Origin: Microbacterium sp.
GTDB lineage: Bacteria; Actinomycetota; Actinomycetes; Actinomycetales; Microbacteriaceae
Direction: 5' to 3'
Length of the DNA stretch: 64,000 nucleotides
Assembly: GCF_017305435.1 (NCBI RefSeq)
Contig: NZ_JAFKIP010000009.1
Location: forward strand, 84,400 to 148,399
In this document: positions 26,030-45,014 of the stretch, piece after piece
Numbering within the stretch: position 1 is the first letter of the stretch
Layout of the letters: each line of letters begins with the position of its first letter
Program-made: the position numbers and the translations under genes
The notes under the pieces: generated by a model
Seen by the model: the letters and a program-made list of their open reading frames with translations, nothing else
Told to the model about the DNA's origin: nothing
Database searches by the model: none

Positions 26030-26072
26030 TGATCTCGATACACCGCAGCGAAAGCCGCGGCACTCGATCACC
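26030..26072. repeat. REP-like palindromic repeat, copy A (reverse orientation)
   Basis: Contains TGATCTCGATACACCG and CGGCACTCGATCACC arms around a GC-rich hairpin. It begins 5 bp after the groEL stop, between convergent groEL and the WXG100 gene. Three further copies are at 34994, 44110 and 44972. Confidence 0.85.
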
Positions 26073-26077
26073 GAGTG

Positions 26078-26104
26078 AAGGGCCCCTCTTCGGAGGGGCC
26101 CTTT
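26078..26104. terminator. Bidirectional terminator after groEL
   Basis: An 11-bp stem with TTCG loop (26078-26088 / 26093-26103), A-rich on one flank and T-rich on the other. It ends 8 bp before the stop of the convergent WXG100 gene, so it can serve both. Confidence 0.85.
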
Positions 26105-26111
26105 CCCGTTG

Positions 26112-26399
26112 TCAGCGGAACAGCCCCGAGGCGGCCGCCTCGGTCTGCGCGTACTGGCTGCCGGCGTGCGCGAGCGCGCTGCCGATGTCGCCGAGTGCCG
26201 CTTCGAGCTCGCGCTGCGTCAGGCGCCACCGGTCGATCACGCCCTGGAACGCGATCGCCGCGGCTCCCGTCCACGATCCCTGCAGCTGTGTGAGCTGCCC
26301 GAGCATCGCGGCGGTCTCGCCCTGCAGGCGATCGGCGGTTGCGCGGATCGCTCCGGTGGCGGTGAGCACGGCATCGGAATCGACGGAGAAGGTCGCCAT
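26112..26399 (-). CDS. WXG100-family (ESAT-6-like) secreted protein
   Basis: A 95-residue helical hairpin protein with the W-x-G turn (GSWTG) near residue 42. It begins MATFSVDSDAV, the usual start of this subgroup. Such proteins leave the cell by a type VII (ESX-like) system or form dimers at the envelope. No EccC or partner gene is nearby, so it is an orphan. The start at 26399 is chosen because the upstream in-frame extension would be Gly/Ala/Arg-rich and unlike the family. Confidence 0.85.
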   Translation of the reverse strand: MATFSVDSDAVLTATGAIRATADRLQGETAAMLGQLTQLQGSWTGAAAIAFQGVIDRWRLTQRELEAALGDIGSALAHAGSQYAQTEAAASGLFR

Positions 26400-26569
26400 G
26401 TCGGACCCCTTTCTGTGTGGATGCCGCCACGCTAGGCCGCGGATGCACGCAGCAGGAGCGGCGCCGGCGGAACGGTGGACAACTTCCCGCATCGGTCTCC
26501 TGTGGAGGAGACGATGCGCCCACTCGCACGGGGCATCCGCACGGGCACCAGCCCGCCCGGTGCACCCGA

Positions 26570-28345
26570 TCAGAAGTCGTCGGCGCTCAGCCGGGGCAGG
26601 GGCTGCGTCTCGATGAGGAGGTGCTCCGCGGCATCCCGCTGCTTCGCCAACGGCAGGAAGACGCGGAACGTCGCCCCGCCGCCGGCCGTCTCGAAGACCT
26701 CGATCGACCCGTGCAGCGCCTCGACGACCGAGGCGACGATGGACAGGCCCAGCCCCGAGCCCCCCGTCTCGCGCGCACGCGAGGTGTCGGCGCGCCAGAA
26801 GCGCTGGAAGATCTTGTCGCGGATCTGCTCCGGGATGCCCTCGCCGTGGTCGCTCACCGCGATCCAGCCCATCCCGGCCCGCTCGTCGACGCCCGTGGAC
26901 AGCTCGATCGGCGAGCCGGCCGGCGTGTAGCGGCGCGCGTTGCCGAGGAGGTTCGCGACGACCTGGCGGATGCGGTTCTCATCGCCGAGGACGATCGGAG
27001 CGGGCGGCGCGGGTATGGCCGGGGTGCCCGGCCGCGAGGCCGCACCACCGGCAGCGCCGGCCGCGGCTGCCGCACTGGCCGCACCGGCCGCACTGGACCC
27101 GGGGCGGGGACGCCGGCGCAGGAGGGAGCGGGTGGCGCCCGCGATGCCACGGCGCGCACCCGTGGCATCCACCGTCGACGTCACGAGCGGCACCGGTGCC
27201 GTGGGCGTGGGCTCCGGTCGGTCGTCGATGAGAGCGACCTCGCGGTCGGGCGAAGCGGCGCGGGCGTCGAGGGCCGCGTCGCGGGCGATCGGGCGGAGGT
27301 CGACGTCGGCGACGACGATGTCGCGCCGTTCGTCGAGGCGGGCGAGGGCGAGGAGGTCTTCGACGAGCCCGCCCATGCGGATCGCCTCCTTCTCGATCCG
27401 CTCCATCGACTGCGCGGTCTGCTCGTCGCCGGCGATCGCGCCCATGCGGTACAGCTCCGCGTAGCCGCGCACCGTGACGAGGGGTGTGCGCAGCTCGTGG
27501 CTCGCGTCGCCGATGAAGCGGCGCATCTGCTGCACCGTGGCATCCCGTTGGCCGAGAGCGTGGTCGATGCGGTCGAGCATCGTGTTGATCGCGATCTTGA
27601 GGCGGCCGACCTCGGTGCCCGGAGTGATGTCGCCCATGCGCTGGCTGAAATCGCCCGCTGCGATCGACATGGCGGTGGACTCCACCTGACCGAGCCCGCG
27701 GAAGGCGAGGGTCACGAGCAGGCGCGTCGCGATGGCGCCGGCCAGGATCGTGACGAGCGCGAGGGCCGTGTAGATGCCGAGGAAGTTCGCGACCGTCTGA
27801 TTCACCGGCGTCAGCGGCAGCGCGAGCAGCTGCACGTAGGACTGCTGCGACCCGGGGAGCTGCAGCAGGTCGACCGCCGCATGGAAGGTCGTCTTGCCGT
27901 CGACCGAGAGGATGTCGAAGGGTGCCGTGCCCTGCATGAGCGCCTTGTCCAGGCCGAAGGGCTCCGGATAGTGCGGCTGGCTCCCGGCCGGGCCGCCCGC
28001 GGCGCCGCCGGTCTGCAGCAGCGTGCCGTCGGGCCCGTAGATCGCGATGTAGAACGACGTCAGCGGCGCTGTCGCGGGCGGGCCGAACTGGGCGACGCCG
28101 TCGATCACTTCGACGCTCAGGAGACTGGATGCCTGGTCGAGTGTGACCGTCTGCGTGATGGATTTGTCACGCTCGTCGATCTGGGCGTTCCGCAGGAACA
28201 CCGCCGTGCCGATCCCGACCGCGACGAGCCCCAGGGCCAGCACGGCGACGGTGACGCCGGTGACCTTCGCGCGCAGGCTGACGCCGCGCCACCATTCGGT
28301 GATCCGGTCGCCTCGGCGGGCGTGCGCGGCGAGCGGGGGAGCCAC
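26570..28345 (-). CDS. Sensor histidine kinase (TrcS-like)
   Basis: A 591-residue kinase: N-terminal transmembrane helix (about residues 28-50), extracellular sensor, second helix around 185-208, HAMP, HisKA with DASHELRTP (His near 282), then HATPase with N-box (NLLGNARRY), DHGEGIP and GGSGLGLSIV. Between HisKA and the N-box, residues about 377-446 hold a low-complexity Pro/Ala/Gly/Arg-rich insertion, not a normal part of the ATPase fold. It lies 19 bp downstream of the response regulator gene and forms a two-component pair with it. Confidence 0.94.
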   Translation of the reverse strand: MAPPLAAHARRGDRITEWWRGVSLRAKVTGVTVAVLALGLVAVGIGTAVFLRNAQIDERDKSITQTVTLDQASSLLSVEVIDGVAQFGPPATAPLTSFYIAIYGPDGTLLQTGGAAGGPAGSQPHYPEPFGLDKALMQGTAPFDILSVDGKTTFHAAVDLLQLPGSQQSYVQLLALPLTPVNQTVANFLGIYTALALVTILAGAIATRLLVTLAFRGLGQVESTAMSIAAGDFSQRMGDITPGTEVGRLKIAINTMLDRIDHALGQRDATVQQMRRFIGDASHELRTPLVTVRGYAELYRMGAIAGDEQTAQSMERIEKEAIRMGGLVEDLLALARLDERRDIVVADVDLRPIARDAALDARAASPDREVALIDDRPEPTPTAPVPLVTSTVDATGARRGIAGATRSLLRRRPRPGSSAAGAASAAAAAGAAGGAASRPGTPAIPAPPAPIVLGDENRIRQVVANLLGNARRYTPAGSPIELSTGVDERAGMGWIAVSDHGEGIPEQIRDKIFQRFWRADTSRARETGGSGLGLSIVASVVEALHGSIEVFETAGGGATFRVFLPLAKQRDAAEHLLIETQPLPRLSADDF

Positions 28346-28364
28346 GGTTCTCGCGGGAGCGGCC

Positions 28365-29057
28365 TCAGGCCGTCTTGCCGGCCTTCAGCATGTAGCCGAA
28401 CCCGCGCTTGGTCTGGATGAGGGGCTCCGACGAGTACGGATCGATCTTGCGTCGCAGGTACGAGATGTAGCTCTCGACGATGCCGGCGTCGCCGTTGAAG
28501 TCGTACTCCCAGACGTGGTCGAGGATCTGCGCCTTGCTCAGCACACGGTTGGGGTTGAGCATGAGATAGCGCAGGAGCTTGAACTCGGTGGGGGAGAGGT
28601 CGATCGACACGTCGCCGACGGTGACGTCGTGCGTGTCCTGGTCCATCGTGAGCTCGCCGGCCTTGATGGTCGACTCCTCGTCGGCCTGCATCGTGCGGCG
28701 GAGGATCGCCTGCAGCCGCGCGACGATCTCGTCGAGCGAGAAGGGCTTCGTGACGTAGTCGTCGCCGCCCGCGTTCAGGCCCTCGATCTTGTCTTCCGTC
28801 TCGTCCTTCGCGGTCAGGAACAGGATCGGCGCCGTGTACCCGGCGCCGCGCAGGCGCTTGGTGACGCTGAAGCCGTTCATGTCGGGCAGCATGACGTCGA
28901 GGATGATGAGGTCGGGCTCCTCCTCCAAGACGGCGGAGATCGTCTGCGCGCCATTGCTGACGGCGCGGACCTGGTACCCGGCGAACCGGAGGCTCGTGAC
29001 GAGCAGATCGCGGATGTTCGGTTCGTCGTCCACGACGAGGATGCGCGGTGCGGTCAT
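28365..29057 (-). CDS. OmpR-family response regulator (TrcR-like)
   Basis: A 230-residue regulator with a receiver domain (phospho-acceptor D54 in LIILDVMLPD, LFLTAKDE with the T/K switch residues) and a C-terminal winged helix (LSPTEFKLLRYLMLN, TKRGFGYML). The start at 29057 gives the standard MTAPRILVVDDE opening; longer in-frame readings lack support. It is transcribed first, followed by its kinase. Regulated genes are unknown. Confidence 0.95.
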   Translation of the reverse strand: MTAPRILVVDDEPNIRDLLVTSLRFAGYQVRAVSNGAQTISAVLEEEPDLIILDVMLPDMNGFSVTKRLRGAGYTAPILFLTAKDETEDKIEGLNAGGDDYVTKPFSLDEIVARLQAILRRTMQADEESTIKAGELTMDQDTHDVTVGDVSIDLSPTEFKLLRYLMLNPNRVLSKAQILDHVWEYDFNGDAGIVESYISYLRRKIDPYSSEPLIQTKRGFGYMLKAGKTA

Positions 29058-29147
29058 GACCCCATACTGGCACCGGAATCCATGCGGTTGCTGGATATCC
29101 GCATCCGTGGCCCCGATCGCGGGTCGATCGGTCATCATGAAAAGGTG

Positions 29148-30200
29148 ATGCCTGCCCCCGCTCCGGCGCCCGCGCCCGTCCTCGTGCACGTCCCCGCGCC
29201 CGCTGCGGCCCCGCTTCCGGCCGATGCCACATCGGGCGGTCTCGCGTTCCACCGGCTCGTGTTCGCGCGTCGTCGCCGGGGGTGGTGGACGCCGCTCGTC
29301 GTCGGAGCCCTCGGCATCGCGTTCTACCTCGTGCTGATGCTCGTCGTGCTGGTGGCGATCTTCGCCGCGGCATCCGTCGACCCCACCGTGCTCGAACGCA
29401 TGACGGCGCTCGCGCAGAATCCCACCATCGACGCGCGGGATCCGCTCATGCTGGCGCTCCTGCTCGGCACCATCGTGCTGATGCTGCCGTGCTATCAGCT
29501 CGCCTCGCTCATCGTGAACGGCAAGCGGGTCGGACTCATCTCGTCGGCGGCGGGTCGGCTGCGCTGGCGGTGGATGCTGCTGTGCGGGCTCGTCGCGCTC
29601 GTCCTCTACGGCGTCTTCACGCTCGTGTCACTGGTGCTGCCTTCGGAGATCACCGGGGATGCCGCGGGGGATGCCGCGCCGCAGCCGCTCTGGCCGCTCT
29701 CGCTCGCGCTCATCCTGCTGCTCGTGCCGCTGCAGTCGGCGGCGGAGGAGTACGTCTTCCGCGGGTATCTCGCCCAGGCGATCGGGCGGTGGCTGCGGCA
29801 TCCCGCCTTCGCGATCCTGCTGCCCGTGCCGCTCTTCGTCCTCGGTCACCTCTACGACGTGCTCGGTCAGCTCAGCGTCGGCGTGTTCGCCGTCGCCGCA
29901 GGCTGGCTCGTGTGGCGCACGGGCGGGCTCGAAGCCGCGATCGCGCTGCACGTCGTGAACAACCTGTCCGGTTTCCTCCTGTCGCTCGCGTCCGGCGCCG
30001 ATCCGACGGCGAGCGAGACGGGATGGGTGAGCTTCGTCTCCTCGTTCGTGCTGATCGGCGGCTATGTCGCGATCGTCGAGTGGCTGCTGCGCCGCCGGGC
30101 GGCGCGCGGCCGGCCCCTCCCGCGGACCCTCGTGCTCACGCCGCCCGTGCCCGTGCCCGCTCACGCCGCGGCGAGGCCGTCGGCGTCCAGGATCGTGTAG
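29148..30200 (+). CDS. CPBP-family intramembrane glutamic endopeptidase
   Basis: A 350-residue polytopic protein with a Pro/Ala-rich cytoplasmic N-terminus (residues 1-30). The CPBP (Abi/Rce1-like) motifs are in order: EEYVFRG (motif 1 glutamates, about residue 200), FVLGHL (motif 2 His) and HVVNN (motif 3). AAAGG lies just before the ATG at 29148. Members cleave membrane substrates such as prenylated or bacteriocin-type peptides; substrate here is unknown. Its last 40 bp overlap the 3' end of the convergent XPB gene. Confidence 0.9.
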   Translation: MPAPAPAPAPVLVHVPAPAAAPLPADATSGGLAFHRLVFARRRRGWWTPLVVGALGIAFYLVLMLVVLVAIFAAASVDPTVLERMTALAQNPTIDARDPLMLALLLGTIVLMLPCYQLASLIVNGKRVGLISSAAGRLRWRWMLLCGLVALVLYGVFTLVSLVLPSEITGDAAGDAAPQPLWPLSLALILLLVPLQSAAEEYVFRGYLAQAIGRWLRHPAFAILLPVPLFVLGHLYDVLGQLSVGVFAVAAGWLVWRTGGLEAAIALHVVNNLSGFLLSLASGADPTASETGWVSFVSSFVLIGGYVAIVEWLLRRRAARGRPLPRTLVLTPPVPVPAHAAARPSASRIV

Positions 30201-31804
30201 CTGTAGCCCTGTTCGGCGAGGAACCGCTGGCGGTTCTGCGCGAAGTCCTGATCGACGGTGTCGCGTGCGATGAGGGTGTAGAAGCTCGCCGTGTGCCCGC
30301 TCTGCTTGGGGCGCAGGAGTCGTCCGAGCCGCTGTGCCTCCTCCTGACGGGATCCGAACGACCCCGACACCTGGATGGCGACGGATGCCTCGGGCAGGTC
30401 GATCGAGAAGTTCGCGACCTTCGAGACGACGAGCACGGGGATGCGTCCCTCGCGGAACGCGCCGTAGAGCTCCTCGCGCTCGTCGACGGGCGTCGCGCCC
30501 GTGATCTGCGGCGCGCCCAGGGCGTCTGCGAGGATGTCGATCTGATCGAGGTACTGGCCGATCACGAGGATCTGCTCGCCCGCGTGCCGCGCGACGAGGT
30601 CCTTCACGACGCCGATCTTCGCGTGCGCCGTCGCCGCGAGGCGGTAGCGCTCGTCGTCGGCCGCCGCCGCGTACTCCATACGGTCGCCCGGGGGCAGATC
30701 GACGCGCACTTCGTAGCAGACGGCGGGGGAGATGAACCCCTGCGCCTCGATCTCCTTCCACGGCGCGTCGAAGCGCTTGGGTCCGATGAGGCTGAAGACG
30801 TCGCCCTCGCGGCCGTCCTCGCGCACGAGCGTGGCCGTGAGGCCGAGTCGTCGCCGCGCCTGCAGGTCGGCGGTCAGCTTGAACACGGGGGCGGGTAGCA
30901 GGTGCACCTCGTCGTAGACGATGAGACCCCAGTCCAGGGCATCCAGCAGCGCCAGATGCGCGTACTCGCCTTTCCGCTTCGCGGTGAGGATCTGGTAGGT
31001 CGCGATCGTGACCGGCTTGACCTCCTTCACCTGACCGGAGTACTCGCCGATCTCTTCGGGAGTGAGCGTCGTGCGCTTGAGCAGCTCGTCGCGCCACTGC
31101 CGCGCGCTCACGGTGTTGGTGACGAGGATGAGGGTCGTCGTCTTCGTGTCGGCCATGGCCGCCGCCCCCACGAGCGTCTTGCCGGCGCCGCAGGGGAGCA
31201 CGACGACACCCGACCCGCCCTCGCTGAAGATGTCGACGGCTTTGCGCTGGTAGGGGCGCAGCGTCCAGCCGTCCTCGGCGAGGTCGATCTCGTGCGGGGT
31301 GCCGGGGGTGTAGCCGGCGTGGTCCTCGGCGGGCCAGCCGACCTTGAGGAGTTCCTGTTTGATGTGACCGCGCGCCCAGGCATCCACGGTGAAGACGCCG
31401 GGGGAGGGATGCCCCGTCAGCAGCGGCTGGATGCGCTTGTTCTTCGCGACCTCGGCGAGCACCGCGGTGTCGGTCGCGCGGAGGATCAGCGTGCCCTCGT
31501 CGTCGCGCTCGATGACGAGCCGCCCGTAGCGGCCCACGGTCTCGCGGATGTCGATCGAGACGGATGCCGGGACGGGGAAGCGCGACCAGCGATCGAGCGT
31601 GGCGAGCATGTCCTCGGCGGAATGTCCCGCCGCGCGGGCGTTCCACAGCCCGAGCCGCGTGATGCGGTAGGTGTGGATGTGCTCCGGGGCGCGCTCGAGT
31701 TCGGCGAACGTCGCGAGTTCGTGACGGGCGCTCTCGGCGTCGGGATGGGCGACTTCGAGCAGCACGGTGCGGTCGCTTTGCACGATGAGGGGTCCGTCAG
31801 CCAT
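30161..31804 (-). CDS. XPB-type DNA repair helicase
   Basis: A 547-residue SF2 helicase of the bacterial XPB/Ssl2 group. Walker A (LPCGAGKT), DEVH box (VYDEVHLLPAP), SAT-like GLTATLVRE, and motif VI QRLGRLLRPK are visible, after an N-terminal damage-recognition-like domain. It unwinds DNA 3'-5' in repair. The next gene on the same strand is its usual neighbour, a helicase-associated protein, the same order as ercc3 and Rv0862c in Mycobacterium. Confidence 0.95.
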   Translation of the reverse strand: MADGPLIVQSDRTVLLEVAHPDAESARHELATFAELERAPEHIHTYRITRLGLWNARAAGHSAEDMLATLDRWSRFPVPASVSIDIRETVGRYGRLVIERDDEGTLILRATDTAVLAEVAKNKRIQPLLTGHPSPGVFTVDAWARGHIKQELLKVGWPAEDHAGYTPGTPHEIDLAEDGWTLRPYQRKAVDIFSEGGSGVVVLPCGAGKTLVGAAAMADTKTTTLILVTNTVSARQWRDELLKRTTLTPEEIGEYSGQVKEVKPVTIATYQILTAKRKGEYAHLALLDALDWGLIVYDEVHLLPAPVFKLTADLQARRRLGLTATLVREDGREGDVFSLIGPKRFDAPWKEIEAQGFISPAVCYEVRVDLPPGDRMEYAAAADDERYRLAATAHAKIGVVKDLVARHAGEQILVIGQYLDQIDILADALGAPQITGATPVDEREELYGAFREGRIPVLVVSKVANFSIDLPEASVAIQVSGSFGSRQEEAQRLGRLLRPKQSGHTASFYTLIARDTVDQDFAQNRQRFLAEQGYSYTILDADGLAAA

Positions 31805-31840
31805 AACGGATCATTCTACCGGCGTGCAGTCGGTGCGGCT

Positions 31841-33619
31841 TCAGGCGGGGCCGACCCGGACGATGCTCGAGACGGGCAGCGTGCGTTCGACGTCGACGGT
31901 GCGGTCGAGGCCCCGCAGACGCCCGCCGCCGAGCCCGGTCGCCTCGATCGTGAACGAGCGCTCGGCCCCCTGATCCTCGTCTGGACTGGCCGGCAGGCGT
32001 ACGGTGACCGTGATGGTCGCCCGGGTGCGGACGGCCTGCTCGAGCTCGCGGCCGAGCCATGCGGCATCCGCGTCTTCGGACTGCGCGGCGCGCAGGCGTG
32101 CGAGGAGGTCGGCGTACACCTCGACGGGGTCCGCCTCCGGCTCCGGCGGCGCGGCGAGGCGATGACGCTCGAGCGGGCGACGTGCGCCGTCGGCATCCAC
32201 GGCGACGATCGGATAGCGGGCGTCGGCGATCATCCAGAACGCGGTGTCCGCGCTCGATCGGGTGATGAGGGCGTCCCCGTCCGGAATCAGCCCGAGGGGC
32301 CGCAGGGCCTGATCGACGGCGATCGTCTGCAGCATCGCGGCGTCGTCGCTCGTGACGCGCGTGCGTCCGCTTCCGTCCTGTCCGACGCGGAGCGTGCCGT
32401 GCCGGCTGGCGGAGCGCTCGATCTCGTAGGCGAGCGGCTGCGGCAGACCCGTGAGCGAGAGTTCGAGGAGGAAAGCCCGCAGGGAGTCGGCGGTCTCGCC
32501 CGCCGTGAGCGCGTCGGCGAGCGTCTCCGCGGTGAAGCGGTAGCTGGATGCCTGGGCACGCGATTCGCGACGCGCCATCGACCGCAGCCGCAGGTCCAGG
32601 TGCGGGGCGAGGGAGCCCGGGGCGATCGCGGTGAGGTCGTTCTGCAGATAGACGCGGTCGACTTCGGGCGGGAGGAGTGCGGCGAGTGCGGCCGCGTCGG
32701 GGGCGTCGCCCGCGGCTGCGCGCCGCATCCACACGGTCGGCTCGCCCGCGCCGTCGACGATCGCCCAACGCCGCAGGAGCCCCGCGAGCTCGTCGGCGCG
32801 CGCGGGCCAGGCCGGGTCGAACGGGTACGCGCCGGGCCAGGCGGGGGCGGCGAGCCAGCCGCCGGCTGCCGTGCGCAGCCCCGCCGGCAGGCCCGCGATC
32901 AGCCGCGCCGCGACGGCCGACCAGCGAGCGGCCGTGCTCCCGCCGAGCCAGTCGATGCCGGCGGGGGTGACGAGGAGCGCGCGCCCCTCCGGAGCGAGCA
33001 GGCCCGCACTCTGCCCGATCGCGACGAGGTCATCGGCGGCCGCGGCATCCTCGACCGCGCCGGTGTCGATGAGTCGCCGGCGGTCCGCGGCGCCGAGCGT
33101 GCCCGCCCCGATGCGGCCGAGAGGGGCGACGAGCGCCGCGTGCAGGACGTCGGCGAGCGAGGCCGTGGCGGTGAACGCGCGCTCGGCGGATGCCGCGTCG
33201 GCGGCGTTCTCGCCGATCGGCGTCCGTTCCGGTGTCGGCGCCGTGGTCGGGGAGAGTACGGCGACGCGGCTCGTCGCGCGGAAGGTGTCGGCGACGCTCT
33301 CCCAGACGCGCCCGTCGGCGTCGAGCAGCCCGCGCGCGACGAGCACGTCACGCGCGGGGCCGGGCTCGGCTGCGGTGGCTGTCGCCGCCGGTGCCGCTGA
33401 GGCGGCTGTCGCCGCCTCCAGCGCGTCCGCCTCTGCGGCGGTCAGATCGACGAGGGCGCGAGCGATCGACGTCGGATCGAGCAGCTGCTCGGCCGCGTCG
33501 AACGCGTCGTTCCAGTGCGCGGCGGGGGAGACATGACGGGCGAGAAGCAGTGCGGCGAGGGAGCGGTCGTCCCGCGCCGCGAGCTCGTGCGCGAGCGTGC
33601 GCGCGGAGGGCCCGGTCAT
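31841..33619 (-). CDS. Helicase-associated domain protein (Rv0862c-like)
   Basis: A 592-residue Ala/Leu/Arg-rich protein that in Actinobacteria is encoded beside XPB. The N-terminal half has winged-helix-like repeats (GPSARTLAHELAARDDRSLAALLLAR), the C-terminal third a helicase-C-like domain (ASRHGTLRVGQDGSGRTRVTS; ARYPIVAVDADGARRPL). No catalytic helicase motifs are seen, so it is probably an accessory factor. Start at 33619 is the first ATG after the upstream membrane gene and gives the family length. Ala/Gly/Thr low-complexity linkers lie near residues 75-90. Confidence 0.8.
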   Translation of the reverse strand: MTGPSARTLAHELAARDDRSLAALLLARHVSPAAHWNDAFDAAEQLLDPTSIARALVDLTAAEADALEAATAASAAPAATATAAEPGPARDVLVARGLLDADGRVWESVADTFRATSRVAVLSPTTAPTPERTPIGENAADAASAERAFTATASLADVLHAALVAPLGRIGAGTLGAADRRRLIDTGAVEDAAAADDLVAIGQSAGLLAPEGRALLVTPAGIDWLGGSTAARWSAVAARLIAGLPAGLRTAAGGWLAAPAWPGAYPFDPAWPARADELAGLLRRWAIVDGAGEPTVWMRRAAAGDAPDAAALAALLPPEVDRVYLQNDLTAIAPGSLAPHLDLRLRSMARRESRAQASSYRFTAETLADALTAGETADSLRAFLLELSLTGLPQPLAYEIERSASRHGTLRVGQDGSGRTRVTSDDAAMLQTIAVDQALRPLGLIPDGDALITRSSADTAFWMIADARYPIVAVDADGARRPLERHRLAAPPEPEADPVEVYADLLARLRAAQSEDADAAWLGRELEQAVRTRATITVTVRLPASPDEDQGAERSFTIEATGLGGGRLRGLDRTVDVERTLPVSSIVRVGPA

Positions 33620-33621
33620 GA

Positions 33622-34022: not shown

Positions 34023-34403
34023 ATGCCCACCGGCAAGGTCAGGTTCTACGACGACGAGAAGGGTTTCGGCTTCATCACCGCCGATGACGGCCAGGACGTC
34101 TTCCTGCACGCCACGGCCCTTCCTGCGGGATCGGTCGTGAAGACGGGCTCGCGACTCGAGTTCGGTGTCGCCGACGGCAAGCGCGGTCTGCAGGCGCTCG
34201 CGGTGCGCGTGCTCGACGCTCCTGTGAGCCTCGCCAAGCGCAACCGTCCGAAGGCCGACGACATGGCGGTCATCATCGAGGACGTCGTGAAGCTGCTCGA
34301 CAAGGTCGGAGGCGACCTCCGCCGCGGGCACTACCCGAGCGGAGCCCAGGGCACGAAGGTCGCGGCGATCCTGCGCAAGGTGGCCGATGACCTCGACGCC
34401 TGA
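34023..34403 (+). CDS. Cold-shock-domain protein with C-terminal extension
   Basis: A 126-residue protein. Residues 1-65 form a cold-shock domain ([23 protein letters not shown]), and residues 70-126 a charged helical extension (VIIEDVVKLLDKVGG..TKVAAILRKVADDLD) found in actinobacterial CspB-like proteins. A TAGGCT -10-like box lies about 70 bp upstream. It overlaps the DUF3027 gene by 17 bp in another frame, so the two are coupled. It likely binds RNA or single-stranded DNA. Confidence 0.92.
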   Translation: MPTGKVRFYDDEKGFGFITADDGQDVFLHATALPAGSVVKTGSRLEFGVADGKRGLQALAVRVLDAPVSLAKRNRPKADDMAVIIEDVVKLLDKVGGDLRRGHYPSGAQGTKVAAILRKVADDLDA

Positions 34404-34998
34404 GCCCGTGACGTCGATGCACGGCTCCGCGGACGAGCGCCTGATCGGCGCGCACGATCTCGCCGTCGCGGCGCTGCGGGAGATCACGCCGGCGGCGACG
34501 ATCGGCGAGCCCGTGGGCTACACGCTCGAGGACGGCGGCGTCGTGTCGCTGCGTTTCGCGAACACGATGGAGGGCTACCCGGGCTGGTTCTGGACGGTGA
34601 GCGTCGCCGTCGTGGAGGACGCCGACCCGACCGTGCTCGAAGCCGAGCTGCTGCCCGGTGACGGGGCGCTGCTCGCGCCGGAGTGGATCCCCTGGGCCGT
34701 GCGGCTCGCCGAGTATCAGGCGGCCGCTGCGGCCGCCGCGGAGGCGGACGACCACGACGAGGACATCGACGACATCGAGGACGACGACGATCACGACGTC
34801 GACGATCTGGACGATCTGGATGCCGCCGACTTCGACGACGACGGCTCGCCGATCCTCCACGCGGGCGACGTCGACGGCGTCGACATCGACGAGCTCGACG
34901 ACTCCGCCCCCGACGCGGCTGAAGACGACGACGCCGACCCCGACGGCGACGACACCGACCTCGCCGACTCCGACGACGAGACCGCTCAACCCCGGTGA
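34387..34998 (+). CDS. DUF3027-domain protein with acidic tail
   Basis: A 203-residue protein. Residues 12-120 carry the DUF3027 pattern (AHDLAVAALREIT, GYTLEDGGVVSLRFA, YPGWFWTVSVAVV, PEWIPWAVRL). Residues from about 118 to the end are almost entirely Asp/Glu (runs such as DDHDEDIDDIEDDDDHD), an intrinsically disordered acidic tail. Relatives lie beside CspB and SerC in other Actinobacteria, as here. Its TGA stop is supplied by the first bases of REP copy B. Function unknown. Confidence 0.85.
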   Translation: MTSTPEPVTSMHGSADERLIGAHDLAVAALREITPAATIGEPVGYTLEDGGVVSLRFANTMEGYPGWFWTVSVAVVEDADPTVLEAELLPGDGALLAPEWIPWAVRLAEYQAAAAAAAEADDHDEDIDDIEDDDDHDVDDLDDLDAADFDDDGSPILHAGDVDGVDIDELDDSAPDAAEDDDADPDGDDTDLADSDDETAQPR

Positions 34999-35037
34999 TC
35001 GAGTGCCGGCGCGCAGCGCCGGTGTATCGAGATCACC
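34994..35037. repeat. REP-like palindromic repeat, copy B
   Basis: GGTGATCGAGTG arm, 7-bp central stem CCGGCGC/GCGCCGG around a GCA loop, then GTATCGAGATCACC arm. It overlaps the DUF3027 stop codon and lies between convergent DUF3027 and serC. Confidence 0.85.
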
Positions 35038-35153: not shown

Positions 35154-36309
<1,156 letters not shown>

Positions 36310-38214: not shown

Positions 38215-38261
38215 GTGCGTTACCCTGAACCCGACGCTCGCAGAAGCCGAGGGGGAAGCTG

Positions 38262-38393
38262 ATGGACGCAGCAGGAGCAGGCATCCGCACCATGGATGCC
38301 CTCTGCCGGAATGTCTCCGGTCGCTACGTCCTGCGGCATCGCGTGCACGAGAGTCGCGGCATCCGCCGCGCGACGAAGGCGCTGTCTCGATGA
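38262..38393 (+). CDS. Small basic protein, 43 residues
   Basis: A short frame with AGGGGGA 7 bp before its ATG and GC-biased third positions. The product opens MDAAGAGIRTMDALC and ends in a basic stretch (RRATKALSR). Its stop lies inside an intrinsic terminator loop (38376-38406), so it forms a complete mini-transcription unit. TACCCT at 38221 may be its -10. No domain recognised. It could also be a leader peptide linked to attenuation before the HNH gene. Confidence 0.5.
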   Translation: MDAAGAGIRTMDALCRNVSGRYVLRHRVHESRGIRRATKALSR

Positions 38394-38406
38394 CGGCGCC
38401 TTTTTT
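38376..38406 (+). terminator. Intrinsic terminator
   Basis: AAGGCGC (38376-38382) pairs with GCGCCTT (38396-38402), and the T-run 38401-38406 follows. It is the only classical hairpin-plus-T6 terminator seen in this part of the window. Confidence 0.85.
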
Positions 38407-38492
38407 CGTGCCCGCACGCTCCTTCCCGGGGCCTGCGCGCGTCGACCGAGAGGCCCGCTGAAGCCGTCAGGGGCCGTTCGAGAGGACGCCGC

Positions 38493-38990
38493 ATGCGCAC
38501 ACTGGTACTGAACGCAGGATACGAACCGCTCGCCATCGTCTCCTTCAAACGAGCCCTCGTGCTCGTCATGAACGAGAAGGCCACCGTGATCGAGCACATC
38601 GACGGGAACCCCGTCTGGGGGCTGAGGGGGCCGTTGGACCGCCCCGCCGTCATCGTGCTGACACGGTATGTCCGGGTTCCGGGGGCGCGCCGGGTGCCCG
38701 TCACGCGCCGCGGGGTGCTGCGGCGCGACGCGCACCGCTGCGCCTATTGCGGCGCCGGCGCCACGACGATCGACCACGTGCTGCCGCGCTCGCGCGGGGG
38801 AGCGGATTCGTGGGAGAACCTCGTCGCCTGCTGCCTGCGCTGCAACAACGTCAAGGGCGATCGCACGCCGCAGGAGATGAACTGGGAGCTGCGTTGGATG
38901 CCGCAGCCGCCGCGGGGCGCGCAGTGGACCGTGCGGGGCACGGAGCGCTCCGACCCTGCCTGGGAGCCGTACCTCTCGCTCGCCGCCTGA
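38493..38990 (+). CDS. HNH endonuclease-domain protein
   Basis: A 165-residue protein. N-terminal residues 1-70 form an actinobacterial extension (TLVLNAGYEPLAIVSFKRAL). The HNH domain follows with CAYCG, DHVLPRSRGG, WENLVACCLRCN and KGDR, so both zinc CxxC pairs and the catalytic His are intact. This stand-alone form is a conserved chromosomal gene in Actinobacteria with unknown target, probably in DNA repair or defence. Confidence 0.9.
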   Translation: MRTLVLNAGYEPLAIVSFKRALVLVMNEKATVIEHIDGNPVWGLRGPLDRPAVIVLTRYVRVPGARRVPVTRRGVLRRDAHRCAYCGAGATTIDHVLPRSRGGADSWENLVACCLRCNNVKGDRTPQEMNWELRWMPQPPRGAQWTVRGTERSDPAWEPYLSLAA

Positions 38991-39057
38991 TTCCGAGGCT
39001 TCTCCGGCGGCTCCGGTCGCGATGTCGGATGCCGTGATTATCTTCGATCTCACCGGA

Positions 39058-39086
39058 TTGAAGTACTAGAACAGAAGTTCTAGCCT
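39058..39086 (+). promoter_or_regulatory. SOS promoter with LexA box before imuA'
   Basis: TTGAAG (39058-39063) and TAGCCT (39081-39086) are 17 bp apart. Within the spacer lies the perfect palindrome TAGAAC-AGAA-GTTCTA (39067-39082), which matches the actinobacterial LexA box GAAC-N4-GTTC. LexA would block RNA polymerase directly. The site controls the three-gene mutasome operon downstream. Confidence 0.88.
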
Positions 39087-39104
39087 GGTGAGGTGAGGAC
39101 GATC

Positions 39105-39809
39105 ATGGCGGACGCGGGGGCGATCCAGGCGCTGCGCGCGCAGGTGGAGCGCCTGCAGGGGCGCCGCCTCGACGTGCCCGTGCTGCCGGTGCCGCCGGCG
39201 CTCGCCGAGCTCCTCCCCGGCGGCGGCCTGCGCCCGGGGTCCTCGTACGCGCTCGGGCGCTCGACGTCGCTGCTGTTCGCGCTGCTCGCCCGCCCGTCGC
39301 AGAGCGGCGCGTGGTGCGCCGCGGTGGGGATGCCGCACCTCGGTGCCGAGGCGGCTCGGGCGGCGGGGGTCGACCTGTCGCGGCTCGTCCTCGTGCCCGA
39401 CCCCGGGCAGCGCTGGCTCGCGGTCACGGCGGCGATCGCCGACGTGTTGCCGGTCGTCGCGGTGCGTCCGCCCGCGCGCGCGAAGGATGCCGACATCGCG
39501 CGCCTGGCGGCCCGCATGCGCGAGCGGGAGGCGGTGCTGCTCGTGCAGGGGCCGTGGCCGCAGACCGAGGCGATGATCGACGTCGGCGACCCGTCCTGGT
39601 CGGGTCTCGGCGAGGGCTACGGACTGCTCGACGGGCGTGAGCTGACCGTCACAGTGACCAGTCGCCGCTTCCCGTCTCCGCGCACGGGCCGCGTGCTCCT
39701 GCCGGATGCCGCGGGCGCCGTCTCCGGCGTCACCGGAGCCTCCGCCACCTTCGCCCCCGAGAAGCACAGCGTCGAACCGCGCTGGGGCCTGTCGCGGGCG
39801 GTGGGCTGA
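39105..39809 (+). CDS. imuA': ImuA'-like protein of the SOS mutasome
   Basis: A 234-residue RecA-fold-like protein without a convincing Walker A motif (PPALAELLPGGGLRPGSSYALG in its place). It is the first gene of the imuA'-imuB-dnaE2 cassette and has the LexA box just upstream. ImuA' helps load the translesion polymerase. The ATG at 39105 has a GGTGAGG ribosome site; a GTG at 39093 is possible. Its stop overlaps the imuB start (TGATG). Confidence 0.85.
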   Translation: MADAGAIQALRAQVERLQGRRLDVPVLPVPPALAELLPGGGLRPGSSYALGRSTSLLFALLARPSQSGAWCAAVGMPHLGAEAARAAGVDLSRLVLVPDPGQRWLAVTAAIADVLPVVAVRPPARAKDADIARLAARMREREAVLLVQGPWPQTEAMIDVGDPSWSGLGEGYGLLDGRELTVTVTSRRFPSPRTGRVLLPDAAGAVSGVTGASATFAPEKHSVEPRWGLSRAVG

Positions 39810-41488
39810 TGGTGACGCCGTCGGATGCCGCGCCGCGCACGCTCGTCGTGTGGGTGCCGGACTGGCCGATCGTCGCGCTCTTCCGGGACGGCGACGACCC
39901 GCCCCCGCAGGGCGCGCCCATCGCGATCTTCGCGAAGGGCGCAGTGGCGGCCTGCTCGGCGGCGGCGCGTGCCGAGGGGGTGCGCCGGGGCCAGCGCCGG
40001 CGCGACGCGCAGGCGCGGTGCCCGCACCTGGAGGTCGTGCTGGACGATCCGGTGCGCGATCACCGGGCGTTCGCGCCCGTCGTCGCCGCCGTCGAGGAGG
40101 CCGCCCCGGGCGTCCAGGTGGTCCAGCCCGGGCTCCTCGCCCTGCGGGCGAGGGGGCCGGAGCGCTTCTACGGGGGCGAGGCGGCAGCGGCGACCGTGCT
40201 CGCCGGCACGGTCGCCGCGCAGGGTATCGGCGATGTGCGCGTCGCCGTGGCGGACGGCGCCTTCACGGCCGAGCAGGCCGCGCGAGTGGGGACACGGGCA
40301 TCCGACCCGTTGCGGATCGTGCCGTCCGGCGCCGCCTCCGCCTTCCTCGCTCCGCTGTCGGTGGCCGTGCTCGACGACGACATCGTGAGCCTGTTCGGCC
40401 GGCTCGGCGTGCAGACTCTCGGGGCCGTGGCCGCCCTCGGCCCGGAACGGCTGAGCGAGCGCTTCGGCGCGCGCGGCGCGCGGCTGTACGCTCTGGCATC
40501 CGGTCGGGACCCCCGGTCCGTGCAGGCGCGGACACCGCCGCCCGAACTGCACCGCGAGATCTCCTTCGAGCCGCCCGTGGCGCTCGCCGACCAGATCGCG
40601 TTCGCCCTCCGCATGCCCGCGGAGGAGTTCACTCTGCGCCTGGGGGAGCGGGGGCTCGTCTGCACCGAACTGCGCGTCGTGCTCACGGGCGAGCACGGCG
40701 ATCGCAGTGAGCGGGTGTGGCTGCACCCCGGCGCGTTCGACGCCGCGGCGATCGTCGACCGGGTGCGATGGCAGCTCGCCGAGCAGGGGAGCGCCGCTTC
40801 TGCGGGCAGGCGCATCACGGGGCTGCGCAGCGCGGTCACGAGCGTGCGGATCGAGCCGGAAGGGGTGGATGCCGCCGCGCACCACACAGCGCGCCTGTTC
40901 GGCTCGGGGCCCGAGGAGCGCGTGCACCACGCGCTCTCCCGGGTACAGGCGATGCTCGGGCACCAGGGCGTCCTCACGCCGGAGATCGGCGGGGGGCGCT
41001 GGCTCGCCGAGCGGCAGCAGCTCGTGCCGTGGGGGGACGTGCGGGCGGATGCGCGCCGACACCCGGTGGGATCGGCGGGGCAAGCCGGGCCGGCGGGACA
41101 GGCGCCGCCGCCGTGGCCCGGGAGCCTGCCCGGACTGCTGCCGACCTCGGTGTTCGCCCCGCCCGTCCCCGTGGCGGTGCTCGATCGCGACGGGGACATG
41201 GTGGCGGTGGATGCCCGGGGAGAGGTCACCGCCGACCCCGTCTGGATCCTGGTGCCGACGCCGCCGGCGCGCGCTGCGTCGGGGCGCGAGGCGCCGGGGC
41301 CGGGGCCGGGCGACGGGGCGCGGCGCGGCATCCGGCACTGGGCGGGCCCCTGGCCGGTCGCCGAGCGCGGTTGGGATCCGGTGCGAGCGCGGGCCGCGCA
41401 CCGCTTCCAGGTCGTCGACAGTGCGCAGTCGGCGTGGCTGCTCGTGTGCGAGGAGGGCAGCTGGCAGGCGGAGGGGGTGTACGACTGA
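39809..41488 (+). CDS. imuB: Y-family polymerase-like ImuB
   Basis: A 559-residue DinB/UmuC-fold protein. The N-terminal palm begins LVVWVPDWPIVALF instead of the D-x-D start of active Y polymerases, and the acidic pair is missing, as expected for catalytically inactive ImuB, which bridges beta-clamp, ImuA' and DnaE2. The C-terminal region is Gly/Ala/Pro-rich around residues 415-435. Its stop overlaps the dnaE2 start by 1 bp (TGATG). Confidence 0.93.
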   Translation: MVTPSDAAPRTLVVWVPDWPIVALFRDGDDPPPQGAPIAIFAKGAVAACSAAARAEGVRRGQRRRDAQARCPHLEVVLDDPVRDHRAFAPVVAAVEEAAPGVQVVQPGLLALRARGPERFYGGEAAAATVLAGTVAAQGIGDVRVAVADGAFTAEQAARVGTRASDPLRIVPSGAASAFLAPLSVAVLDDDIVSLFGRLGVQTLGAVAALGPERLSERFGARGARLYALASGRDPRSVQARTPPPELHREISFEPPVALADQIAFALRMPAEEFTLRLGERGLVCTELRVVLTGEHGDRSERVWLHPGAFDAAAIVDRVRWQLAEQGSAASAGRRITGLRSAVTSVRIEPEGVDAAAHHTARLFGSGPEERVHHALSRVQAMLGHQGVLTPEIGGGRWLAERQQLVPWGDVRADARRHPVGSAGQAGPAGQAPPPWPGSLPGLLPTSVFAPPVPVAVLDRDGDMVAVDARGEVTADPVWILVPTPPARAASGREAPGPGPGDGARRGIRHWAGPWPVAERGWDPVRARAAHRFQVVDSAQSAWLLVCEEGSWQAEGVYD

Positions 41489-44400
41489 TGGGATTCAACA
41501 ACCCCTCCGTGACGTGGTCGGAGATGGAACGGCTCCTCAGTGGGCGCGCGAAGGAGCCCGACGGCGGCGACGGTCCGGCGTTCTCACGCAAACGCGGGAC
41601 GTACGAGGCGCCGCCGATCCCACGCCCCGCCGATCCCGTGCCCTATGCCGAGCTGCACGCGCATTCGTCGTACTCGTTCCTCGACGGGGCGTCCTCTCCC
41701 GCGGAGCTCGCCGAGGAGGCCGAACGGCTCGGACTGCACGCGCTCGCCGTGACCGACCACGACGGCTTCTACGGGATCGTGCGCTTCGCCGAGGCGGCCG
41801 AACAGCTGCACGTGCAGACGGTGTTCGGCGCCGAACTGTCGCTCGCGGACGATCCGTTCTCCGGGGCGCCTGCCCGCGGCGGGCCGGCCGATCCGGGCGG
41901 GACGCACCTGCTCGTCCTCGCCCGCGGCGAGGAGGGCTACCACCGCCTCGCCGCCGCGATCACGCATGCCCAGCTCGCCGGGGGTGAGAAGGGGCGCCCG
42001 CGCTACGACCTCGATGACCTCGCCACGCAGGCGGACGGTCACTGGGCCGTGCTCACCGGATGCCGCAAGGGCGCCGTGCGGCAGGCCCTGGCATCCGGGG
42101 GCGCCGCAGCGGCCGGCGACGCTCTCGACGCACTCGTCCGGCGGTTCGGCCGAGACGCGGTGAACGTCGAGCTCATCGACCACGGCGGCCCTGCGGACAC
42201 GCGCGACAACGACGTGCTCGCCGCGCTCGCCGCGGCGCGGGGGCTGCCCGTCCTCGCGACGAACAACGTGCACTACGCCGTGCCCGAACGCGTGCACCTG
42301 GCGGCGGCCGTCGCCGCGGTGCGAGCGAATCGCGGGCTCGACGAACTCGACGGATGGCTCCCCGCGCATGCGAGCGCGCACCTGCGCTCGGGGGCGGAGA
42401 TGGCCCGTCGCTTCCGGCGGTACCCCGGGGCGATCCCGCGCACCGTCACCCTCGCCGACGAGCTCGCGTTTCCGCTCCGCCGTGCCAAACCCGCGCTGCC
42501 GAAGACGGACGTGCCGGAGGGGCACACACCGATGTCGTGGCTGCGGAAGCTCGTGTGGGATGCCGTGCCGCGCAAGTACCCCGATGCGTCGGACGACGAT
42601 CGTGCGCGCATCGAGAAGGAGCTCGCCGTCATCGAGCAGAAGAACTTTCCCGGGTACTTCCTCATCGTGCACGGGATCGTCAAGGAAGCGCGGGAACGAG
42701 GCATCCTGTGCCAGGGGCGCGGGTCGGCCGCCAACAGCGCCGTCTGCTATCTGCTCGACATCACGGCCATCGACTCGATCTTCTACAACCTGCCGTTCGA
42801 GCGGTTCCTCTCCGCGATGCGCGATGAGGAGCCCGACATCGACGTCGACTTCGATTCGAACCGACGTGAGGAGATCATCCAGTGGGTGTTCGACACGTAC
42901 GGGCGCGAGCGTGCGGCGCAGGTCGCGAACGTCATCCAGTACCGACCCAAGAACGCCATCCGCGACATGGCGAAGGCGCTCGGCCACTCGCCGGGGCAGC
43001 AGGATGCCTGGTCGAAGCAGGTCGAGCGGTGGGACGGCCTCGTCCCGGGGGCCCACGACATCCCCGAGCGGGTGCTGGAGTACGCCGGCGCGCTGATGAA
43101 GGCGCCGCGCCACCTCGGCATCCATTCGGGCGGCATGGTCCTCACCGAGCGTCCCGTCGGCGAGGTCGTGCCGATCGAGCACGCGCGCATGGTCAACCGC
43201 ACCGTCATCCAGTGGGACAAGGACGATGCGGCGTGGATGGGGCTCGTGAAGTTCGACCTGCTGGGGCTCGGCATGCTCGCAGCTCTCCAGTACTGCTTCG
43301 ACCTCATCCGGGGCGCGACGGGGGAGGAGTGGTCGCTCGATGCGATCCCGAAGGAGGAGCAGGCGGTCTACGACATGCTCTGCCGGGCGGACTCGATCGG
43401 GGTCTTCCAGGTGGAGTCGCGCGCACAGATGGGGCTCCTGCCCCGGTTGCAGCCGCGGCGCTTCTACGACCTCGTGATCGAGATCGCGTTGATCCGGCCC
43501 GGCCCGATCCAGGGCGGGGCGGTGCATCCGTACGTGCGGCGCAAGGTGCAGGGCGAGACCGTGACGTATGCCCACGAGAAGCTGAAACCCGTGCTCGAGC
43601 GCACCCTCGGCATCCCGATCTTCCAGGAGCAGCTCATGCAGATGGGCATGGCCGTGGGAGATCTCACGGGCGAGGATGCCGATGTGCTGCGCCGCGCGAT
43701 GGGGTCCAAGCGCGGCATCGAGCGGATCGAGTCGGTGAAAGAGAAGCTCTACGCCGGGATGGAGCGCCACGGCCTCGTGGGCGAGGTCGCCGACGACATC
43801 TACGCGAAGATCCAGGCGTTCGCGAACTTCGGCTTCGCCGAGAGCCACTCGCTGTCGTTCGCGCTGCTCGTCTACGCATCGTCTTGGCTGAAGCTGCACT
43901 ATCCCGGCGCGTTCCTCGCGGCGCTGCTCCGCGCGCAGCCGATGGGGTTCTACTCTCCGGCATCCCTCACCGCCGACGCCCGCCGGCACGGCGTGCAGGT
44001 GCTGCGCCCCGACCTCCACGCGTCCGGCGCCGACGCGACCCTCGAGCCGCTCGAGTCTGTCGGGCCTGTCGGGCCTGCCGGTGATCGAGTGCCGCCTGTG
44101 GCGCTTCTCGGTGATCGAGTGCCGCCGCGCAGCGGCGGTGTATCGAGATCACCCGCCCCGACGGGCAAGGCCACCTGCACCGACTGCCGCCAGCCGCCCG
44201 TGCCCCCCTTCGACGCCGCCGCTCCCGACGAGTCCGCCGCGCACCGTCGTGACGGGGCGTTCGCCGTGCGGCTCGGCCTCGCCGCGGTCACCGGGGTCGG
44301 ACAGGCGCTCGCGCAGCGGATCGTCGCGTCACGCGAGGCGGAGGGCCCGTACCGCGACCTCCGCGATCTCGTCCGCCGCACGAACGCGACCGAGGCGCAG

Positions 44401-44964
44401 GTCGAGGCGCTCGCTACCGCCGGGGCGTTCGAGAGCATGGGCATCTCGCGGCGCGAGGGACTGTGGATGGCGGGGGATGCCGCGAAGGACCGTACCGAGT
44501 TCCTCGAGGGCACGCTCGTGTCGGTGCAGCCGCCGCTGTTTCCCGACCAGTCGAGCTACGACATCCTCGCCGCCGATCTCTGGGCGACGGGCATCTCGAC
44601 CGACGATCATCCGCTCGTGCACTACCGATCGCAGCTGGACGCGCGGGGGGTGCTCACGGCGCGCGGCCTGCGCACGCACGAGGTGGGGCGGCGGGTCGAG
44701 GTCGCGGGGCTCGTCACGCATCGCCAGCGCCCGGCGACGGCGTCCGGGATCACATTCCTGAACCTGGAGGACGAGCACGGGCTCATGAACGTGATCTGCT
44801 CGAAGGGGGTGTGGGACAGGTATCGGCGCGTGCTGCGGGATGCCCCGGCCCTCATCGCCCGCGGCATGCTGGAGCGCTCCCCGGAGGGGGTGACAAACCT
44901 CGTCGCCGATGCCTTCGAAGACCTGCGGATCGGGGTGCGGCACCGCTCCCGCGACTTCCGGTGA
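41488..44964 (+). CDS. dnaE2: Error-prone DNA polymerase III alpha, DnaE2 (ImuC)
   Basis: A 1158-residue C-family polymerase: PHP domain (AELHAHSSYSFLDGAS, TDHDGFYG), palm with catalytic aspartates in PDIDVDFDSNRR (about residue 450), finger GRGSAANS, HhH region (VTGVGQALAQRI), and OB domain (VEVAGLVTHRQRP). It makes mutagenic translesion synthesis with ImuA'/ImuB after SOS induction. Residues about 865-889 are encoded by a REP-like repeat in frame, followed by a Pro-rich linker, a place where related enzymes have a short loop. The catalytic core is untouched, so the gene is probably functional. Confidence 0.96.
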   Translation: MGFNNPSVTWSEMERLLSGRAKEPDGGDGPAFSRKRGTYEAPPIPRPADPVPYAELHAHSSYSFLDGASSPAELAEEAERLGLHALAVTDHDGFYGIVRFAEAAEQLHVQTVFGAELSLADDPFSGAPARGGPADPGGTHLLVLARGEEGYHRLAAAITHAQLAGGEKGRPRYDLDDLATQADGHWAVLTGCRKGAVRQALASGGAAAAGDALDALVRRFGRDAVNVELIDHGGPADTRDNDVLAALAAARGLPVLATNNVHYAVPERVHLAAAVAAVRANRGLDELDGWLPAHASAHLRSGAEMARRFRRYPGAIPRTVTLADELAFPLRRAKPALPKTDVPEGHTPMSWLRKLVWDAVPRKYPDASDDDRARIEKELAVIEQKNFPGYFLIVHGIVKEARERGILCQGRGSAANSAVCYLLDITAIDSIFYNLPFERFLSAMRDEEPDIDVDFDSNRREEIIQWVFDTYGRERAAQVANVIQYRPKNAIRDMAKALGHSPGQQDAWSKQVERWDGLVPGAHDIPERVLEYAGALMKAPRHLGIHSGGMVLTERPVGEVVPIEHARMVNRTVIQWDKDDAAWMGLVKFDLLGLGMLAALQYCFDLIRGATGEEWSLDAIPKEEQAVYDMLCRADSIGVFQVESRAQMGLLPRLQPRRFYDLVIEIALIRPGPIQGGAVHPYVRRKVQGETVTYAHEKLKPVLERTLGIPIFQEQLMQMGMAVGDLTGEDADVLRRAMGSKRGIERIESVKEKLYAGMERHGLVGEVADDIYAKIQAFANFGFAESHSLSFALLVYASSWLKLHYPGAFLAALLRAQPMGFYSPASLTADARRHGVQVLRPDLHASGADATLEPLESVGPVGPAGDRVPPVALLGDRVPPRSGGVSRSPAPTGKATCTDCRQPPVPPFDAAAPDESAAHRRDGAFAVRLGLAAVTGVGQALAQRIVASREAEGPYRDLRDLVRRTNATEAQVEALATAGAFESMGISRREGLWMAGDAAKDRTEFLEGTLVSVQPPLFPDQSSYDILAADLWATGISTDDHPLVHYRSQLDARGVLTARGLRTHEVGRRVEVAGLVTHRQRPATASGITFLNLEDEHGLMNVICSKGVWDRYRRVLRDAPALIARGMLERSPEGVTNLVADAFEDLRIGVRHRSRDFR
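44080..44153. repeat. REP-like repeat, copy C, inside dnaE2
   Basis: A degenerate half copy (44080-44099) is followed by a full copy (44110-44153) with a CCGCCGC/GCGGCGG stem and GCA loop. Length and phase keep the dnaE2 frame open. It is preceded by GTCGGGCCT twice in tandem. Confidence 0.85.
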
Positions 44965-44971
44965 CCCACCC

Positions 44972-45014
44972 GGTGATCGAGTGCCGCGGCGCAGCCGCGG
45001 TGTATCGAGATCAC
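44972..45014. repeat. REP-like repeat, copy D
   Basis: GGTGATCGAGTG arm, CCGCGGC/GCCGCGG stem around GCA, then GTATCGAGATCAC arm. It begins 8 bp after the dnaE2 stop, between convergent dnaE2 and the HesB-like gene. Confidence 0.85.

Follow-up and report, generated by a model that had tools for sequence, protein, structure and literature searches.

The stretch of DNA analysed here, referred to as the window, comprises 64,000 nucleotides of a Microbacterium sp. (assembly GCF_017305435.1, contig NZ_JAFKIP010000009.1, positions 84,400 to 148,399) and carries four copies of a short palindromic repeat. On the strand on which both arms are read, the element has the form GGTGATCGAGTG - stem - loop - stem - GTGTATCGAGATCA(CC), with the arms GGTGATCGAG/CGAGATCACC and loops that are mostly triloops. 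An earlier note on this DNA had placed the four copies at 26030, 34994, 44110 and 44972, and all of them were found there. The copies and the neighbouring genes, which were called with a gene finder based on codon usage and trained on the window, are as follows.

24405..26024, plus strand: groEL (Cpn60), gene finder and Pfam
26030..26072, minus strand: copy 1 of the element, in the groEL/WXG100 gap, loop TTTC
26078..26104, no strand given: separate terminator-like hairpin GGGCCCCTC-TTCG-GAGGGGCCC, adjoining copy 1
26112..26399, minus strand: gene for a WXG100 protein, gene finder and Pfam
34387..34998, plus strand: gene for a DUF3027 protein, gene finder and Pfam
34994..35037, plus strand: copy 2, between the DUF3027 gene and the convergent class-V aminotransferase gene
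35154..36269, minus strand: class-V aminotransferase gene (serC in the earlier note), gene finder and Pfam
41488..44964, plus strand: gene for a DNA polymerase III alpha homologue (dnaE2 in the earlier note), gene finder and Pfam PF07733
44080..44109, plus strand: truncated left unit (arm and half a stem) directly before copy 3, its left arm being among the 38 counted genome-wide
44110..44153, plus strand: copy 3, in frame inside dnaE2, in a variable linker
44972..45015, plus strand: copy 4, in the gap that separates dnaE2 from the small convergent gene
45030..45058, no strand given: separate hairpin GGCGCCCCGG...CGAGGCGCC, adjoining copy 4 and also present in the relative G036 (L029)
45081..45362, minus strand: small convergent gene (HesB-like in the earlier note), gene finder, no Pfam match

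The copies at 34994, 44110 and 44972 have the conserved arms, a 7-bp stem and a GCA loop as described earlier, and the stems quoted for them (CCGGCGC/GCGCCGG, CCGCCGC/GCGGCGG and CCGCGGC/GCCGCGG) are correct. This description does not extend to the copy at 26030, which has one G-T pair in its stem and a right arm ending in GATCAGC. The copy at 44972 ends in GATCACAC. One copy had been said to supply a stop codon, and indeed the TGA of GGTGA at 34996-34998, within copy 2, terminates the DUF3027 gene.

The genome sequence of the strain (3.5 Mb in 10 contigs) was scanned with patterns derived from the element, the same pattern read backward serving as the control. A strict pattern yielded 26 matches and none in the control, a looser one 33 matches compared to one in the control (by eye, a few of these matches look unrelated), and the left arm alone 38 matches compared to none. 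Stem covariation was determined on the 17 distinct copies of equal length (38-mers). Among 187 stem cells 98.4% were paired, and both sides had changed in 6 of the 11 pairs, a level reached by only 1 of 500 shuffles; the covariation score was reached by none of the 500, although these shuffles do not preserve the relatedness among the copies. Sliding the partner by 1–3 columns lowered the pairing to 23–56%. The repeat family and its stem covariation are thus real, and the earlier observation that the stems differ yet stay paired extends to the genome. That such compensatory change means selection does not follow from the paired changes, as kinship or hairpin-templated correction can produce them too. 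Slippage-type processes may also rewrite one arm of the stem from the other, and covariation taken by itself is therefore no proof of selection.

Covariation extends to the outer arms, which occur as GGTGATC/GATC and as GGTGGTC/GACC. A GGTC left arm is accompanied by a GACC right arm in four copies (L007, L021, L023 and L025), L014 being the exception. This coupling fits a pairing between element and target, but it is also explained by a conserved outer stem. The flanking GATC has the appearance of a target site duplication; however, GGTC on the left and GACC on the right are inverted and not direct, and this candidate was rejected.

Related palindromes occur in other genomes. The exact arms of the window subtype were found in 22 stretches of named records, with Gordonia araii, Nocardioides limicola, a Nocardioides metagenome-assembled genome (MAG), Aeromicrobium terrae, a Schumannella MAG, a Microbacteriaceae isolate and a Microbacterium MAG as hosts; two exact-arm stretches came from a MAG labelled Flavobacteriaceae, where contamination is possible. 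A second subtype in the strain's own genome has other outer arms and carries GAGTAG, a word present in none of the 33 looser-pattern matches. This GAGTAG/CGTATCGAGAC type occurred in 3 of 396 genomes of the phylum, with 26, 16 and 256 copies. In the genome with 256 copies (G272, C1:166663-167388), tandem arrays of the GAGTAG type with steps of approximately 168–171 bp were observed. A third, sister type, GTCGTTGAGCG...CGAAACG, was present in 83 of 149 genomes of the genus and reached 292 copies in one of them, compared to none for the control; the strain's own genome contains no match to it. Two exact patterns gave no match in viral contigs and thus no sign of phage carriage.

These palindromes follow a common plan: an outer stem P/P' and a tandem GA/GA mismatch are succeeded by a G-C pair, after which one base on the 3' side is unpaired, and then by an inner stem, the sequence of which is free; the loop is in most cases a GNA triloop. 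We analysed 43 distinct inner hairpins of other genomes, 19 from exact-arm records and 24 from GAGTAG-type rows, among the matches listed. Their tandem mismatches were GA/GA in 33 of 34 cases, compared to 25 of 639 in shuffles, and 31 of the 43 had GNA triloops (shuffled, 79 of 2150). For the sister type, 75 variants among the matches listed were examined, rows of more than 45 bases being left out. GA/GA accounted for 96 of 106 tandem mismatches, or for 39 of 49 once the outer step forced by the search pattern was omitted. GNA loops were found in 43 of the 75 variants (shuffled, 75 of 1500), and in 56 of the 75 the fold left a single base unpaired on the 3' side, separated by one pair from the outer GA step and lying inside it. 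Within the window subtype, loops were GNA closed by C-G in 25 of 32 copies of the strain's own genome. GA/GA and GNA always lie on the left-arm strand, whereas the other strand would read TC/TC and TNC. In DNA, both GNA triloops and tandem GA steps of the form 5'-YGAR-3' have an unusual stability, and tandem GA is stable in RNA as well. This strand-constant design suggests that the element is recognised as folded single-strand DNA. Folding energy was also considered as proof of a strand preference and was rejected, as the differences between the strands were small and the sister type folded no better than its shuffles.

The position of the elements relative to genes was determined for the 26 strict sites. 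Ten lay between convergent genes, 11 between co-directional genes, 2 between divergent genes and 3 within genes; only nine proteins had been checked by Pfam family, and miscalls are possible, above all for the two divergent sites. Thus, 23 of the 26 lie outside genes, and the elements are palindromic, dispersed and mostly extragenic, as is required of repetitive extragenic palindromic (REP) elements. The intragenic copies comprise two near a C-terminal end (in carA-like and ribD-like genes, by eye) and the one in the dnaE2 linker. Counted by gaps, there were 9 convergent, 10 co-directional and 2 divergent ones. Convergent gaps (9 of 21) were not significantly enriched over those of the window (8 of 37; Fisher p 0.13), but when compared with the share of intergenic bases, 20% of which are convergent, convergent gaps were raised (p 0.013) and divergent gaps lowered (p 0.019). 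We concluded that the preference is for gene 3' ends and not for convergent pairs alone. The earlier note had described the element as found only between convergent genes. This is correct for the three intergenic copies of the window and does not hold genome-wide, where just 10 of 26 sites are convergent. On the two points that the earlier note had named as refuting, the outcome was divided: the stem pairing proved to be conserved, and the bias to convergent gaps was moderate.

The copies in co-directional gaps were strongly oriented, with 9 antisense and 1 sense; we explain this bias by the right-arm TGA, which coincides with stop codons. Sister-type sites, taken one per genome from 29 of 30 loci (L132 had no match), were co-directional in 18 cases, convergent in 7, divergent in 2 and inside genes in 2, and the co-directional ones comprised 8 sense and 10 antisense copies. 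Such mixed orientation in the sister family speaks against a role as RNA. Of the window-subtype matches in other records, 9 of 27 received no gene-context class.

In 8 of the 26 rows the neighbouring gene ends at the TGA of the element's right arm (TGATC when read inward), and the stop lay 5–8 bases away for four more elements; as the rows L023 and L024 represent one element, 25 elements were judged for stop sharing. The left arm serves as a stop in L004, which is the window copy at 34994, and so does the left arm of a truncated unit in L001. Among the eight stop-sharing sites is the SSB gene, whose protein retains its DDTPF end and therefore is not shortened. At five stop-sharing sites, element-free relatives had TGATC at 8 of 15 stops, compared to 34 of 382 stops in loci of the genus, a background that includes some of the tested loci. 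At each of the five sites at least one relative had TGATC. The corresponding binomial p of 1.4e-5 exaggerates the significance since the three relatives share history, and the count omits the paralogue rows L168, L170, L171 and L172, the site L008 (no clean match) and the sites L001, L017 and L019. In the nearest relative (L162), the TGATC at the end of ssb runs directly into the old spacer; in the strain's own genome it runs into the element. This link to TGATC suggests insertion at TGATC by an enzyme.

Places occupied by the window copies were also compared among relatives. The dnaE2 linker (window about 44070-44160, and L028-L056) is variable and palindrome-bearing. When an exact rule requiring 4-base arms was applied, 11 of 29 relatives had same-plan palindromes there, and the palindrome of the window is translated in frame. 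The rule P-GAG...CGA-P' with 5-base arms gave 25 hits in the dnaE2 loci of the 29 relatives compared to 4 for an AG control; within the window it gave 12 hits compared to 6, those beyond the four copies being due to chance. A TC control for this rule recovers the same set on the other strand and controls nothing. In the DUF3027/serC gap, a sister palindrome was present by eye in 3 of 5 relatives. As the palindromes in the dnaE2 linkers and in the DUF3027/serC gaps show, the same tolerated places are filled by different subtypes in different species. We interpret the element as belonging, as a minor subtype, to a superfamily of REP-like repeats in Actinobacteria. At L034, L044, L048 and L049 we also observed a minimal palindrome built in the same way, CCCTGAGCTTGTCGAAGGG, the ends of which vary together. 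Minimal palindromes of the CCCTGAGCTTGTCGAAGGG type are probably common in other phyla.

Taken together, we consider it reasonably probable that the element is a REP-like, non-autonomous repeat whose spread, present or past, takes the form of a hairpin of single-strand DNA. It would be inserted next to TGATC by an enzyme other than a Y1 (RAYT/IS200) transposase (RAYT, REP-associated tyrosine transposase), with the outer arm recognising the target, and its copies would survive where harm is small, mainly behind stop codons. The data show the repeat family, the covarying stems, the loop and mismatch pattern kept to one strand, the lack of the copies in sequenced relatives at the sites compared, and the link to TGATC stops; the single-strand DNA as the acting form, the enzymatic insertion and the role of the outer arm in recognising the target are inferred from these. 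Integron attC sites are recognised in a comparable form, a folded single-strand hairpin with unpaired bases and a free stem sequence. The resemblance is an analogy confined to this form.

Several observations weigh against this interpretation. The sister set is a weaker test of the design because its arms are fixed, and shuffling the middle only still gave GA/GA in 603 of 1553 steps. In DNA folding the sister design gains no advantage (z -0.2 and -0.65), although sheared GA pairs may be unscored. No mobilising gene was found, PF01797 being the only transposase family sought. The ratio of 9 antisense to 1 sense copies could also stem from a role as RNA. The TGATC test is small, covering five of the eight sites in three related genomes, and the background is higher in the window itself, where TGATC makes up 8 of 50 stops. 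No insertion between strains was seen; the relatives are approximately 75–94% identical over the aligned stretches, and the junctions are inexact. Finally, the groEL gap of one relative (L093) contains two TGATCGAG words and no element hairpin, which could be a relic or due to chance.

An unlikely alternative is that the paired stem changes arose through hairpin-templated correction, i.e. template switching, during replication, a process that is compatible with spread as a mobile hairpin. Left arms follow each other at steps of 30–44 bases in nine places. In at least four arrays (L081, L082, L088 and L090) the units repeat, by eye, the upstream flank together with part of the element, and one whole unit comes last; flank repetition was not evident in L087 or in the array of the window. 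Such repetition is tandem duplication by slippage at the hairpin, and the stems mostly agree within an array and differ between loci. However, template switching explains neither the strand-constant GA/GA and GNA nor the dispersal to new loci, and the persistence of GA/GA is contrary to the expectation that mismatches would be converted into pairs.

The earlier note had raised bidirectional termination as one function of the hairpin. Elements kept by selection at gene ends, as bidirectional intrinsic terminators or as stabilisers of RNA 3' ends, would account for the excess in convergent gaps and the depletion in divergent ones, for the strong GC-rich stems, and for the antisense bias of the strain's own co-directional copies. 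The mixed orientation of the sister copies does not agree with this. In the groEL/WXG100 gap the element was missing in all eight relatives with an aligned gap, and a GC-rich hairpin was present in all eight as well as in the strain itself. The loop of this hairpin is TTCG in 5 of the 8 relatives and in the strain's own genome, whereas the loops of the element are mostly GNA. Likewise, the element was absent, by eye, from the dnaE2 gap of 8 of 8 relatives, and the gap in the window holds a separate hairpin. A strict scan of the window from 26000 to 45200 returned no terminator-like hit with a T tract, although it missed the groEL hairpin too. Based on the groEL-gap hairpin kept without the element, the separate hairpin in the dnaE2 gap and the lack of a T-tract hit, the element is probably an addition beside terminators rather than the terminator itself. 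With 11 of the 26 sites co-directional in addition, termination is unsupported as the main role, and we regard it as improbable. Among 12 loci searched against Rfam to E 0.1, the only match was an FMN riboswitch (RF00050) in one locus (L026, 1182-1343), which lies no more than a few hundred bases from an array of truncated units.

The other option of the earlier note was a REP-type element moved by a RAYT-like transposase. The REP type is borne out in form: the elements are dispersed imperfect palindromes at gene 3' ends, with arrays and intragenic copies. A RAYT is not supported. A Pfam profile search for Y1_Tnp (PF01797) gave no match in the strain's own genome or in any of the nine carriers of related repeats, of which it is one, and a match in 1 of 149 genomes of the genus; that genome (G040) has no sister-type match. 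The same search was positive in 5 of 14 control genomes, E. coli among them. A classical REP whose RAYT (TnpA_REP) has since been lost from the genome would show the same class of anatomy, and the presence of a GAGTAG-carrying type in the same genome, together with a location at stops and within genes as the text of PMC3733652 reports for REPs, fits this. Nevertheless, we think it very improbable: in the window subtype GTGC takes the place of the GTAG of REPs, and PF01797 is absent from 9 of 9 carriers and from 148 of 149 genomes of the genus, 83 of which carry sister copies, and independent loss on such a scale is unlikely.

The element shares with the GTAG REPs of E. coli, Pseudomonas and Stenotrophomonas the short imperfect palindrome, its dispersal, the location at gene ends, the arrays and the intragenic copies, as well as a conserved stem irregularity (in E. 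coli) and a strand-specific design; according to PMC8266576, TnpA_REP recognises REPs as single-strand DNA and on one strand. It differs from them by the lack of a Y1 transposase in its carriers, by GTGC instead of GTAG in the window subtype and by a stem irregularity that consists of tandem GA/GA. Copy numbers of REPs are usually >100 according to the abstract of PMC2817692, compared to 26 strict copies here. With the CGTC REPs, as treated in PMC3733652, it shares the lack of a dedicated transposase and the occurrence inside genes, including genes of DNA synthesis and repair. It lacks their CGTC tag, their 8–9 bp stem, 4–5 base loop and CCA tail, and the five phyla named there for these families do not include Actinobacteria. 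Rickettsia palindromic elements (RPE), of which RPE-4 and RPE-6 correspond to CGTC families according to the same text, likewise lie within protein genes, as in dnaE2 here, and are unlike the element in sequence and plan. We concluded that the element is REP-like in anatomy and location and that, by the transposase and tag tests, it is not a RAYT-associated REP.

In some places the elements stand among parS words. In the strain's own genome (L079, C7:550600-554700), between genes that are rsmG-like and parA-like by eye, there are six parS words GTTTCACGTGAAAC, and between them come copies of the window subtype and an inverted palindrome of the GAGTAG type, each unit measuring about 130–150 bp. 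The element alternates with parS in two other records as well, L057/L077 and L060, the latter with nine parS words; sister-type palindromes stand among parS words in L127 (2 words) and L138 (8 words). The element could accordingly be pictured as the site, kept under selection, of a chromosome-organising protein (gyrase, spreading ParB or a nucleoid protein) with the parS arrays as its original place; this has little probability, given that 23 of 26 strict sites have no parS within 1.5 kb, that the sites vary between species and that the sister type is missing in 66 of 149 genomes of the genus.

A bolder version of spread as a single-strand DNA hairpin is possible, though doubtful. The palindromes would then form an unrecognised class of mobile hairpins, common in some Actinobacteria, with an outer arm that pairs with a TGATC/TGGTC target, which would account for the stops, a non-Y1 enzyme, and GNA together with sheared GA/GA as the recognition code. 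If arm and target do pair, the target would be expected to change along with the arm (GATC to GGTC), similar to the guide sequences of IS200/IS605. The REP survey PMC3733652 names Proteobacteria, Cyanobacteria, Chloroflexi, the PVC group, Chlorobi, Bacteroidetes, Spirochaetes and Thermotogae; its main text contains none of the words Actinobacteria, Streptomyces, Mycobacteri- and Frankia. Among the matches listed for the open-access literature, fragments of the arms appeared in no repeat paper by title, and no paper dealt with actinobacterial REPs or with this family; longer strings of the element were found in no paper.

REPs are best known as a pair of palindrome and RAYT. Here, a large set of REP-like palindromes occurs without a RAYT in nearly all genomes tested, and if this is real, other machinery moves or makes them. 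The strand-constant plan of GA/GA and GNA provides a simple signature for finding more such repeats, and a hairpin that follows a stop codon in a genome of this kind is not necessarily a terminator.

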